A stretch of 36,135 nt of DNA from contig JABMNR010000065.1 in the NCBI GenBank assembly GCA_013203465.1, positions 1 to 36,135 on the forward strand, written 5' to 3'. This document shows positions 16,727-21,388 of the stretch, one piece after another. Under the pieces are notes generated by a model. It worked only from the letters and a program-made list of their open reading frames with translations. It made no database searches and had not been told where the DNA came from. Each line of letters begins with the position of its first letter. Within the stretch, counting starts at the first letter, position 1. The position numbers were made by a program, and so were the translations under genes. The stretch comes from Alphaproteobacteria bacterium. Its GTDB lineage: Bacteria > Pseudomonadota > Alphaproteobacteria > Thalassobaculales > Thalassobaculaceae.

Positions 16727-17761
16727 TCAATGCAGGTTCGGCGCGTGTTTCTGCAGCGCGCGGATTTTATCAAGCCCCGGCACCATCTCGGCCACAAGCC
16801 AGTCAGAGCGTTTGTTCGGGCTGCCGCCGCCATTGGGGAAGTCTTGATTCCAGCGATCGATCTTGACCGACAAACCGCACAACACCCCGCCCACGGTGTG
16901 GTGTTGGCTCTGGATGAGCTGGCGTAGCTCAGCGTACCGGTCCTTCGACAGATCGACCCAGAACTCTCGAGACGCCTCATCGAATGCCTTGAAGCGTTGG
17001 GCGGTAAAGGCGAGGGCGTTGTCCAACTCGGTCTTCACCAACTCGCAGGCTTTCATCGCGTCCTTGTTATGGCGCAGATGGGTGTCGACAATGCCTTCGC
17101 GAACCCAGGCCGCCAGTTCGTCGCAGGCCGGCCGGATCGTGTCGAGATAACGTTTGAAGTAGCTGAGCGACAGGAAGATATCGCCATAATCCTCCAGGAA
17201 TCCGGGAATCTGGTCGATGTCCAGACCAAGCGCGTCGGAAATCGCCTTGATCCGACGTAGCGCCTCGTCACGATCGACCTCGCGGAACATCGCGAAGATC
17301 TCGGTAGCGGAAGATACCTCCCGCGTGTCCTGACCGAACACCTTCTGCACCAAGGGACGAGTGAACACCTGCATGTAGTCGGTCAGCTTTTCCTGCATCT
17401 TGGGGGACAGGCGCAGATGCTCGGCCTCTTCGATCTTGATGTTGTGCGAACGCAGGGTCAGCCGCAGGGAATAGACATCGAAGCTTGGCGACGCAGCCAA
17501 GGCCTCGATGATGGTTCGGTCGGCGATGAAGGTCGGTGCCGAGGAGTCGAAGAAATCGGACAGGCCGGCGACATCGATCTGACCGGAGCCGGAGCGGGAA
17601 TCCTTGAACAACTCGACGACGGTATCGAAGCGAGAGTTCTTAATCAGCCTTGGCCGTCGCATTCCCGGCGTTTGCAAAGGAATGATCGACAGCGGAAGGA
17701 TGTGCAACGCATCCTTATCGTCGTCCGAATAATTCTCGGACTCTATGGCTTCCGCCGACAT
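16727..17761 (-). CDS. Unrecognised soluble, mostly helical protein
   Basis: A 344-residue protein I cannot assign to a named family. It has no signal peptide or membrane helix. The first 35 residues are acidic and Ser-rich, then a basic proline patch (GMRRPRLIKN) precedes a largely alpha-helical body. Notable stretches are LSPKMQEKLTDYMQVFTRP and LSLSYFKRYLDTIRPACDEL. Four cysteines at most, no catalytic-looking motif. ATG 17761 is chosen because AAGGGG lies seven bases before it; a TTG at 17788 is the alternative. It is divergent from the PilZ gene at 17930 across an AT-richer gap, suggesting shared control and perhaps a link to cyclic-di-GMP, surface or motility functions. That is only a guess from position. 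Confidence 0.6.
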   Translation of the reverse strand: MSAEAIESENYSDDDKDALHILPLSIIPLQTPGMRRPRLIKNSRFDTVVELFKDSRSGSGQIDVAGLSDFFDSSAPTFIADRTIIEALAASPSFDVYSLRLTLRSHNIKIEEAEHLRLSPKMQEKLTDYMQVFTRPLVQKVFGQDTREVSSATEIFAMFREVDRDEALRRIKAISDALGLDIDQIPGFLEDYGDIFLSLSYFKRYLDTIRPACDELAAWVREGIVDTHLRHNKDAMKACELVKTELDNALAFTAQRFKAFDEASREFWVDLSKDRYAELRQLIQSQHHTVGGVLCGLSVKIDRWNQDFPNGGGSPNKRSDWLVAEMVPGLDKIRALQKHAPNLH

Positions 17762-17929
17762 CGGCTTTCCCCTTACGGCCGCCGGCAATATGCGGACGGT
17801 CGTGCAGCGTTCGTCATCCTTAGCAGACCGAATTGGTTAAAAACAAGGACACTGCCTCGTCAGCGTTGTGCGATATACGTACAATACACGCAAATTGCGT
17901 TCCGAATGAAAATAGCTGAGGCGGAATTG

Positions 17930-18271
17930 ATGCGCTGGTTGAAGGAGCTGTTTCTGGGTGCCCGGCAGCCGGCGGAGCGGCGGCGCCATCCCCGCTATCA
18001 GGTGTCGGCACCGCTACGGGTCACGGTCGGCGACACGGTTGTGGAATGCCGACTGGAGGATGTTTCGGTTGGCGGCGTGCGCCTGGTTCCGCCGATAGCG
18101 GCGGAACCAGGCACGTCCATCGTTGTGCACGACCCGAATTCCGGACTCGAATTGGCCGGCGTCATCGTTGCTCACGACCCGGGCGGAACCCGGGCGCGGT
18201 TTGATTCCGAGAACGCCGGAATCGTCATCTCGACCTGGTTGCGCACGGCGAACGAAACCGACGGGAGATGA
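17930..18271 (+). CDS. PilZ domain protein (cyclic-di-GMP binding)
   Basis: A 113-residue protein with both halves of the PilZ ligand motif: RRRHPRY at residues 18-24 (R-x3-R type) and DVSVGG (D-x-S-x-x-G) about 25 residues later. It should bind cyclic di-GMP and act as a receptor through a partner. The start ATG 17930 (MRWLKELF) has GAGGCGGA just upstream; ATG 17906 lies in the same frame but has no ribosome site. The frame stays open far upstream only because it runs antisense to the neighbour. The N-terminal amphipathic stretch MRWLKELFLG could bind membrane or partner. Confidence 0.83.
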   Translation: MRWLKELFLGARQPAERRRHPRYQVSAPLRVTVGDTVVECRLEDVSVGGVRLVPPIAAEPGTSIVVHDPNSGLELAGVIVAHDPGGTRARFDSENAGIVISTWLRTANETDGR

Positions 18272-18322
18272 CGCCCGGCGGTTTCGCCATTCGATCCGCC
18301 CCGCTCAAGAGACAGCAACGCG

Positions 18323-19021
18323 TTACGGCACGTCGACGAGAACAATCTCGGCGGTGTCCGTGGCGACGATCGTTATCGTCTCTTGGTCGGCGACGGCCAC
18401 CCCGTCGCGCGCCGCCACCGGCACCCCGTCGACCGTGATGGCGCCGGTCGCCGCCACCAGATAAACCTTGCGGCCGGCACCGATCGGGTGGGTCACGGAC
18501 TGGCCGGCCTGCAACGTGGCGCCGAATACGGCCGCGTCCTGGTTGATCCGCAGGGCATCCTTGTCCTGCGGTCGTCCCGAGGCGAGCACGATCAACTCGC
18601 CGGCGCGGTCACCCTTGGGGAAGGAGCGGCTGTCCCAACGCGGCTCGAACCCGGGGGCCGAGGGCTCGATCCAGATCTGGAAAATCTGGGTGATGTCCGG
18701 CTCCAGGTTGTACTCGGCGTGGACAATGCCGGTGCCGGCGGACATCACCTGCACGTCGCCGGCTTCGGTCCGACCCTCGTTGCCGAGGCGGTCGCGATGG
18801 GTGATGGCGCCGCGCCGGACATAGGTGATGATTTCCATGTCGCGGTGCGGGTGCGGGTCGAACCCGGTGTCCGGTTGGATGGTGTCGTCGTTCCAGACAC
18901 GCAGGGCGCCGAAGCCCATACGGTTGCGATCCATGTAGTGACCGAAGCTGAAATGATGACGCGCCTTCAGCCAGTCGATATCGAATTGGCCGAGGCTGTC
19001 GAACGGGCGAACATCGATCAT
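18323..19021 (-). CDS. Pirin family protein
   Basis: A 232-residue bicupin of the pirin/YhaK type. Metal ligands are visible: HPHRDME (two His about residue 57-59) and GIVHAEYN (His and Glu about 101-103), matching the four ligands of human pirin. The N-terminal HHFSFGHYMD is the family signature. Bacterial pirins bind Fe or another metal, and some act as quercetin 2,3-dioxygenases; the substrate here is unknown. A clear AAGGAG precedes ATG 19021. It lies 26 bases after the stop of a 27-codon wrbA-like frame, and WrbA-type quinone reductases are frequent neighbours of pirins. Confidence 0.92.
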   Translation of the reverse strand: MIDVRPFDSLGQFDIDWLKARHHFSFGHYMDRNRMGFGALRVWNDDTIQPDTGFDPHPHRDMEIITYVRRGAITHRDRLGNEGRTEAGDVQVMSAGTGIVHAEYNLEPDITQIFQIWIEPSAPGFEPRWDSRSFPKGDRAGELIVLASGRPQDKDALRINQDAAVFGATLQAGQSVTHPIGAGRKVYLVAATGAITVDGVPVAARDGVAVADQETITIVATDTAEIVLVDVP

Positions 19022-19047
19022 CGTCGTCTCCTTGTCGGGCTCGCCGA

Positions 19048-19131
19048 TCAGGCCGCGAGCTTGGCGGCTATGCGCGCCATGGTGTCGATATGGCCATGGC
19101 TTGAATAAGAAAAAGCCAGAACCCTGCTCAT
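19048..19131 (-). pseudogene. WrbA-like mini-frame: internally deleted NAD(P)H:quinone oxidoreductase
   Basis: An ATG-to-TGA frame of 27 codons on the minus strand reads MSRVLAFSYSSHGHIDTMAR then IAAKLAA and stop. The first part matches the WrbA N-terminus, including the FMN phosphate loop (E. coli: YSMYGHIETMA). The last part resembles the WrbA C-terminal helix, which commonly ends V-A-x-I-A-A-K-L and stop. An intact gene has about 200 codons. The simplest reading is one in-frame deletion that joined residues near 20 to the last eight. It is the first frame of the pirin transcript and may now act as a leader peptide. No good ribosome site precedes it. A simple N-terminal stump ending at a chance stop is the alternative. 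Confidence 0.62.
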
Positions 19132-19303
19132 GACGACCCGGCGCACGGCCACGCTGTCAACGCAACAGGTAATCGTCTATTGTTTCGTTATAAAGGTATG
19201 GTTTTTGGATAAATTGTTTACGAAGAAAAGACAATACAGTAAGCTGGTCAACCGCCTTCATCGATCACGCGGTTCGCGTGGTTGCCGGTCCGTCGTCTTG
19301 GAG
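19132..19303. promoter_or_regulatory. AT-rich promoter region upstream of the wrbA-like frame and pirin
   Basis: This stretch is clearly richer in A and T than its surroundings between 19170 and 19245. It holds ATTGTTT twice in direct orientation (19179-19185 and 19213-19219), 34 bases apart, and on the minus strand a good -10 hexamer TATAAC (19187-19192). No convincing -35 lies at the right distance, which would fit an activated promoter. No gene is visible in it. Confidence 0.4.
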
Positions 19304-21388
19304 CTAATCGCCCTCGCGCCGCCACGCCAGCAGCAACGAGCCCATGACCAGAACCAGGGCGAGCGCCGCCGGCAGCGCCGGCACGCTCAACACGCCCGTG
19401 ACAACGTAGTCGCCGTTCGCGCGCAAGCCGATCCAACCACGGCCGGAGGCCGCGCGGTCGGGTGAGACACGGCGGATCGCCGGCACACCCTCCTCGTCGG
19501 CCCACACGATCCGACCACCGGTCGCCTCGGCGAGCGGCGCCAGTTCCCGGTCGGTGCCCGCCACGTCGGCCAGCTCCTTCGGGTTGAGCGCGCCGACCGC
19601 CACCAGAGTGGTGCGTGTGCCGTCGGTCAGCCGGTACAGACCCGGCCGATCGACGCCCAATGTCGCCGTGCCTCGGCCGATCCGGTCGGTGGACAGCTCG
19701 ACCACCGTTTCCTCACCCTCGGGATTGGTGACCCGCACCGGGTCCACGACCGGGTCGAGGGAGCGGCGTTCGATCTCGATTACGCGCCCTTGGGCCGTGG
19801 CGCGCAGATCGTCCTCCTCCAGCTCCGGCTCCCGCATCAGCCAGTGGGCGATCCGGCGCAAAAGCTCGGCCTGCGGCCCGCCGCCCTCGAAGCCCCGGCT
19901 CCACAGCCACAGATGATCGGACAGCAGATGCGCGACGCGCCCCTCGCCAACCCGGTCGAGGATCAACAGCGGGCGGGCGTTGACGCCGGTCATCACCACG
20001 TTGCCATGTTCTTCGAGCGCTTCGATTTGTCGGAACCAACGGCCCCATGTCGGTTGTGTGCCGGGTCCGTCGCCGGCACCCGCGAGGCCGGCCGTGACGG
20101 GGTGCCGGTCGCCGAGCTCGGTCACCAAGGGCCGGAACCCGACTTCGATCACCCCACCGGTCGGGCGGGCCGGCAGCACGTCGCCCAACGGCGTACGCGC
20201 CAAGCTTAGTCGGCCGGCGAAGGTCGGCCCCGAGGCTTCCAGTAACGCCCCGCCGTTGCGCACATAGTCGGCGATGTTCCGCAGATACAGTCGAGGCAGC
20301 ACGCCGCGGCGGCGGTAGCGGTCAAAGATGATCAGGTCGAATTCGGCCAGTTTCAGTTCGAACAACTCACGGACCGGGAAGGCGATCAACGACAGCTCGC
20401 GGATCGGCGTGCCGTCCTGCTTTTCCGGCGGGCGCAGGATGGTGAAATGCACCAAGTCGACCGACGGGTCGGATTTCAACATGTCACGCCAGGTGCGCTC
20501 CCCCGCGTGCGGCGCGCCCGACACCAGCAGCACGCGCAACCGGTCCCGGACGCCACTGATCGCGATCACCGCGCTGTTGTTTTCCAGCGTCAGTTCGGCC
20601 GGACCGGCCTCGGCGGTCAGCTCGACGATGGTCTGTCCGCCGTGCTCGATCGGCACGGCGATGGCATGCGGGCGGTTCGCGGGGACCGGCACCGGGGTCG
20701 GCTCGCCGCCGTCGATCGACAGCGCCACCGTCACGGTTTCGCCCGGCGGGGTGGCCGGATCGATGATGTCGAGCGTGATCGTCACGGTCTTGCCGACCAT
20801 GCCGAAACTGGGCGCTTGATCGACCCGCAGGCGTCGGTCCTTACGGTCGCGCTCGCCGGTCAGCACGGCGTGGAACGGCGCCGGCACGCGGTCCGCTTGC
20901 AACGCCGCCGCGGCGTCGTGCACCTGGCCGTCGGTGATGGCGATCACCCCGGCGACGCGGCTCGCGGGCACGTCGACCAACGCCTCCCGCACCGCCGACA
21001 GCAAACGGGTGCCGGTATCGCCCTCGCTTAGGTCACCGTCGGCCACCGTGACCCGCTCGACCCGCAGGCCGTTGAGGCGGGCCAGCCGTTCCTCGATGGC
21101 GGCGAGGGCGGCGTCCGTCCGCTCCGGCCGGCCGGCGATGCGTTGGCTGGCCGTCCGATCGACCGCCAGGATCACCACATCCTCGCGCGGGTCGCGCCGT
21201 TCGGCGATCAGCGTCGGATTGGCTAGCGCCAGGGCCAGCAGCGCTAGCGCCGCCGTGCGCCAGACCGCGCCGCGTGCCTGCCGCGCCAGGGTCAGTCCGG
21301 CGACCAGCGCGGTGACCGTACCAAGAACCGCCACCACCGCCCACGGCACCAGCGGGTCGAACGCCAGATCGATCGCGTCGGGGATCAT
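19304..21388 (-). CDS. Membrane-anchored VWA/glutamine-amidotransferase-like protein of the MoxR cluster
   Basis: A 694-residue protein. Two N-terminal helices (about 13-35 and 44-58) are followed by a von Willebrand A-like region (DVVILAVDRTAS, then VAGVIAITDGQ). A beta-rich segment comes next, then a class I amidotransferase-like domain (LRVLLVSGAPHAGERTW, IIFDRYRRRG, NGGALLEASGP). A final helix near residue 670 precedes a basic tail. No clear Cys-His-Glu triad is present, since the nucleophile elbow lacks Cys, so it is probably not an active amidotransferase. It overlaps the DUF4159 gene by four bases and is the last gene of the moxR-DUF58-DUF4159 operon. The large middle domain should be in the periplasm (inference). 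Confidence 0.72.
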   Translation of the reverse strand: MIPDAIDLAFDPLVPWAVVAVLGTVTALVAGLTLARQARGAVWRTAALALLALALANPTLIAERRDPREDVVILAVDRTASQRIAGRPERTDAALAAIEERLARLNGLRVERVTVADGDLSEGDTGTRLLSAVREALVDVPASRVAGVIAITDGQVHDAAAALQADRVPAPFHAVLTGERDRKDRRLRVDQAPSFGMVGKTVTITLDIIDPATPPGETVTVALSIDGGEPTPVPVPANRPHAIAVPIEHGGQTIVELTAEAGPAELTLENNSAVIAISGVRDRLRVLLVSGAPHAGERTWRDMLKSDPSVDLVHFTILRPPEKQDGTPIRELSLIAFPVRELFELKLAEFDLIIFDRYRRRGVLPRLYLRNIADYVRNGGALLEASGPTFAGRLSLARTPLGDVLPARPTGGVIEVGFRPLVTELGDRHPVTAGLAGAGDGPGTQPTWGRWFRQIEALEEHGNVVMTGVNARPLLILDRVGEGRVAHLLSDHLWLWSRGFEGGGPQAELLRRIAHWLMREPELEEDDLRATAQGRVIEIERRSLDPVVDPVRVTNPEGEETVVELSTDRIGRGTATLGVDRPGLYRLTDGTRTTLVAVGALNPKELADVAGTDRELAPLAEATGGRIVWADEEGVPAIRRVSPDRAASGRGWIGLRANGDYVVTGVLSVPALPAALALVLVMGSLLLAWRREGD

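Follow-up and report, generated by a model that had tools for sequence, protein, structure and literature searches.

The short open reading frame directly upstream of the pirin gene is very probably the scar of an in-frame deletion within wrbA, at a locus where wrbA has been lost, the neighbouring LysR-type regulator gene has been lost but for traces, and pirin has been kept. This locus lies in a stretch of 36,135 nucleotides (the window), a single contig from a draft assembly of 4.48 Mb (238 contigs, rated 100% complete). The ancestral unit would have been headed by wrbA in a wrbA–pirin pair, with a divergent LysR-type regulator gene alongside. In-frame loss of ~516 bases (172 codons) within wrbA would have left the 27-codon scar, the regulator gene would have been deleted apart from traces at most, and pirin would be the sole survivor of the unit. 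The remnant, seen in one draft genome, is best read as a product of ordinary pseudogenisation whose scar is unusually legible.

The remnant frame and its probable deletion junction

19131 (ATG) to 19048 (stop), minus strand: 27-codon wrbA remnant, recognized from its translation, model matches, C-terminal and two-piece fits
19073 to 19079, minus strand: interval of the deletion junction, at about codons 18–20, from the best-fit junctions against the wrbA genes of G022, G013 and G002
18323 to 19021, minus strand: intact pirin gene, 232 amino acids (Pfam Pirin, E 1.9e-34, and Pirin_C_2)

The remnant frame translates as MSRVLAFSYSSHGHIDTMARIAAKLAA, ending in TGA, and lies directly upstream of pirin as originally predicted, with 26 bases (19022–19047) between its stop and the pirin ATG at 19021. 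It is made up of approximately codons 1–19 of wrbA, followed by approximately the last eight codons and the natural stop. The proposed WrbA-like start, around the FMN phosphate loop, is recovered by two WrbA models, residues 1–24 fitting the N-terminus of NF002999 (E 0.004) and of TIGR01755 (E 0.028), E values close to the best that a fragment of this length allows. The full-length cut-offs of these models are missed (17 bits versus 141 for NF002999, 14.4 versus 132.5 for TIGR01755), and a Pfam-A search with this very short query returned no match.

At the other end, the final nine residues (ARIAAKLAA) are identical to the WrbA C-terminus of one relative, G022 (9/9). As a control, the C-termini of 4163 other open reading frames from the loci compared were scored in the same way: 9/9 was reached by none of them and 8/9 by three. 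The last 30 bases of the remnant agree with the wrbA C-terminal codons at 25 positions in G022, 26 in G013 and 25 in G002. The C-terminal match to WrbA exceeds chance, and the last codons do resemble WrbA C-termini up to and including the natural stop, as the original prediction held. Both ends of an intact gene are thus recognizable in the frame by homology, and it occupies the syntenic position, as expected of a gene remnant (pseudogene). A chance reading frame was also considered, and is ruled out by synteny together with the match to both WrbA ends.

When the remnant is fitted in two pieces to the wrbA genes of these three relatives, which all belong to genus g3, 61–64 of the 84 bases are matched, against 53–55 of 84 without a deletion. 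These fits always give 516 missing bases (172 codons), in frame. Alignment with related loci, which had been suggested for finding the end points, thus places them at about codons 18–20; the junction falls at offset 52–59 of the 84-base frame, and its position inside this interval cannot be refined further. A deletion of ~516 bases in frame is supported because the C-terminus is identical and because a full wrbA occupies the same spot in nine of nine relatives sharing the gene order (see below). Since the deletion kept the frame, and since the frame is short, it is still open, with its own ATG and no internal stop. A direct repeat of seven bases, TGGCGCG, is clear at the junction in G002 only, no repeat of at least five bases being found at the G022 and G013 junctions; a repeat-driven deletion is therefore possible, not demonstrated.

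Ancestral gene order and the divergent regulator gene

The comparison set comprised 61 genomes (the genome under study, the only one of its genus, and 60 relatives). Forty of the 61 have a pirin match and 23 a WrbA match, 17 of the latter above the model cut-off. From these 17 above-cut-off loci 15 were extracted, those of G047 and G049 (without the search motif) being left out; the region taken from G049 contains no pirin. Twelve same-family relatives have a pirin of ~64% identity or more, and in 11 of them a complete wrbA lies directly upstream of pirin on the same strand, G015 having none. Nine of these 11 (G026, G013, G022, G034, G030, G035, G002, G004 and G014) have a larger neighbourhood in common with the window, in the order 353-codon gene, PilZ gene, pirin, wrbA and 694-codon gene, then a DUF4159/BatA gene where the stretch reaches. 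A histidine ammonia-lyase gene is also within the stretch in the three g3 genomes. The other two relatives, G001 and G027, share the wrbA–pirin pair alone within the stretch compared. In all nine gene-order relatives a full wrbA (~200 codons) sits between pirin and the next gene, which is precisely the place of the remnant; together with the two-piece fit, this synteny bears out the in-frame wrbA deletion. A phylogeny built on three neighbouring proteins in nine genomes groups the window, with a local support of 0.90, beside genus g3, which includes Thalassobaculum fulvum (L057/G013).

Some features of this neighbourhood deserve mention in their own right. The 694-codon gene has no Pfam match, and neither has the 353-codon gene on the minus strand (16727–17788), which is kept beside pirin in nine relatives. 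The pirin of G014 (L147) is split into two overlapping frames, by a frameshift or an assembly error. In G015 (L148), pirin is accompanied by a divergent LysR-like frame, read by eye, with no wrbA, a state which corresponds either to an independent loss or to an ancestral absence of wrbA.

A search for a second full wrbA, as had been advised, gave no match in the 4.48 Mb genome with two models, the same search being positive in E. coli and others. The FMN_red family has a single match in this genome, under the cut-off, and there is therefore no obvious replacement for WrbA.

A broader set of 99 pirin loci was then considered (98 distinct, L057 and G013 being the same record, and the window's own excluded). 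The two genes tend to occur together: wrbA lies just upstream of pirin in 16 of these loci and elsewhere in the stretch in 21, and is absent from the stretch in 62. As counted by eye, 19 of the 21 have wrbA downstream of pirin and two have it ~1 kb upstream; many records, of Sphingomonas and Caulobacter among others, have wrbA just downstream of pirin (including L058, L059, L072 and L153). A short frame like the remnant, whose presence in relatives devoid of wrbA would have argued against a deletion, occurs in none of the 99 upstream regions. The P-loop matches in these regions are confined to those 16 loci in which a full wrbA lies next to pirin, and the search patterns do pick up the remnant.

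The upstream side of the locus is also altered, as the following features indicate.

19132 to 19303, no strand: shortened region, corresponding to the wrbA upstream region and the divergent LysR-type gene of relatives, from the synteny comparison
19254 to 19289, plus strand: possible C-terminal LysR trace, from the profile score and 25/36 bases shared with G034
19208 to 19279, plus strand: weak possible N-terminal (HTH) LysR trace, from the profile score
19180 to 19186, plus strand: TTGTTTC, possible left half of a palindrome, from pattern comparison with relatives

In the nine syntenic relatives (9/9), a divergent LysR-type gene of ~300 codons lies 132–159 bases from the wrbA start; its LysR identity was confirmed by Pfam for G022, the one tested. 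In the window, this gene is absent between the wrbA remnant and the next gene, and it is absent from the assembly, where the best LysR homologue at any other locus is only 46% identical. The wrbA start and the end of the next gene are ~1.07–1.59 kb apart in relatives versus 172 bases in the window. Within these 172 bases, only the C-terminal piece (AFIDHAVRVVAG in the window, AFIDFAVEVFGD in G034) is suggestive of a LysR trace: among 400 shuffles and 593 contig windows, only one and three, respectively, attained the score of AFIDHAVRV, from 19254. Its N-terminal counterpart, which overlaps it in a different frame, is weak alone, with 10/400 shuffles and 23/593 contig windows scoring as high. 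The summed score of the two traces was reached by none of the 400 shuffles and by two of the 593 contig windows. Searching the region by tblastn with nine LysR proteins gave E 0.1 or worse at best and matched unrelated places too, and intergenic blastn returned only words of 7–13 bases, mostly due to chance. Since wrbA retains both of its ends, at least two events would be needed to account for the wrbA and LysR losses.

A palindrome-like motif, T(T/C)GTTTC...AAACA (GGACA in G026), was recognized by pattern between lysR and wrbA in six of the nine relatives (loci L137–L140, L144 and L147). It is a candidate operator, and the window shows the left half only. The LysR protein would presumably have controlled the wrbA–pirin unit, and pirin would now be expressed from a different signal. 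A sigma-70 promoter scan of positions 18200–19420 found none, which is uninformative, the expected number being only 0.1.

Constraint, translation and alternative readings

Across 15 relatives, 12 columns of the N-terminal WrbA segment LVLYYS...GH.ET show no variation. Four of these are altered in the remnant (V6A, L7F, Y8S and E16D) and the other eight are kept. When each of the 15 relatives is left out in turn, no invariant column is altered in 14 of them, and one in the remaining one. As judged from the four altered columns, the retained codons appear to be under relaxed constraint. For codons 1–19 of the remnant, the median pN/pS is 0.39, which is within the range of the relatives (median 0.18, maximum 0.49), and pN/pS alone is therefore not decisive on constraint. 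The pirin gene has a median pN/pS of 0.27 versus relatives, compared with 0.26 among relatives (G014, with its pirin in two frames, being left out), which points to retention under purifying selection, as in relatives. Its good initiation, as predicted, is confirmed by an AAGGAG ribosome site, with an anti-SD energy of -8.3.

A role of the scar as leader peptide or translational-coupling frame for pirin has in its favour that the ATG, the stop and the 26-base gap to pirin are all intact, and that the distance from wrbA to the pirin ATG is similar in several relatives. However, the ribosome site of the remnant is weak: the anti-SD pairing before its ATG (-3.7) is equalled or bettered at 42% of the 893 ATGs of the contig, and that of the relatives' wrbA genes ranges from -4.3 to -9.3. 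Moreover, pirin has a strong site of its own, WrbA-invariant positions are altered, the upstream region is shortened, and the frame is seen in one genome only (the one of its genus compared), with none in the 99 pirin upstream regions. We thus consider such a role very unlikely. A more elaborate version, in which the deletion product was co-opted after loss of the regulator, a 27-residue peptide from both WrbA ends coupling or tuning pirin translation, appears very improbable too. The original prediction had left the fate of the frame open between a leader or coupling function and a deletion scar; it is the latter which is favoured, and the weak ribosome site, the altered residues and pirin's own site weigh against the former. 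The scar is most likely translated to no use, and probably has no function.

Two other readings concern the origin of the frame. It might derive from a plain truncation, the first 27 wrbA codons being closed by a chance stop and the rest deleted up to pirin. Codons 18–27 of wrbA do partly resemble the C-terminal codons, agreeing with the last 30 bases of the remnant at 17 positions in G022, 17 in G013 and 19 in G002, and a one-piece fit is equally good for some relatives with other C-termini. The far better fit of the true C-terminal codons in these three nearest relatives, the nine identical residues of G022, and a stop and pirin spacing that resemble the natural wrbA end leave very little room for this origin. 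It is likewise hardly probable that the strain carries complete wrbA and lysR genes which were collapsed or joined into a chimera during assembly. The genome is indeed a draft, a mixture of strains is conceivable, and at least one relative has similar sequence at the two ends of the deletion. Nevertheless, no WrbA is found elsewhere in this genome despite its rated completeness, the closest LysR homologue is a distant one, two separate losses would be required, and a fresh mis-join would not explain changes at residues kept by every relative. The losses of wrbA and of the LysR-type gene are thus presumably real in the living strain.

Significance and comparison with known systems

Under the deletion-scar reading, the locus offers a legible case of stepwise operon decay, in which the regulator and one enzyme are gone and the partner remains under normal selection. 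This hints that the pirin of the window is independent of WrbA, in agreement with other genomes that have pirin without WrbA. For annotators, it is also a caution that a short frame may be a scar even when its start, stop and spacing all look neat. As to the ancestral unit, the Rhodopseudomonas palustris genes rpa0909 (wrbA) and rpa0910 (pirin family), which bear neighbouring numbers, are listed with log2 values of 6.80 and 9.70 on syringic acid (PMC6974649). Both being strongly raised on this substrate, a role of the ancestral wrbA–pirin unit in the handling of aromatics or quinones is plausible, and would extend by inference to the genome of the window.

Deletions between short repeats are described as leaving gene remnants in prokaryotes, for example in Haloquadratum walsbyi (PMC3119063). 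The remnant resembles those described there in its internal deletion, with the gene ends staying in place, and differs from them in that a junction repeat is visible in one relative only. Compared with WrbA itself (NAD(P)H:quinone oxidoreductase type IV), it has the N-terminal strand and the FMN phosphate loop region, and it keeps the C-terminal end, the stop and the place ahead of pirin. It differs by the absence of ~172 of 199 codons and by several altered invariant residues; with so many codons gone, a flavodoxin-like fold would be impossible. The closest counterparts are the wrbA–pirin pairs of the relatives with their divergent LysR-type gene, for example that of Thalassobaculum fulvum, set in the same surrounding gene order; in genus g3 the pirin orthologues are 79–81% identical to that of the window. 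Compared with these pairs, the window has a scar in place of wrbA and no LysR gene.
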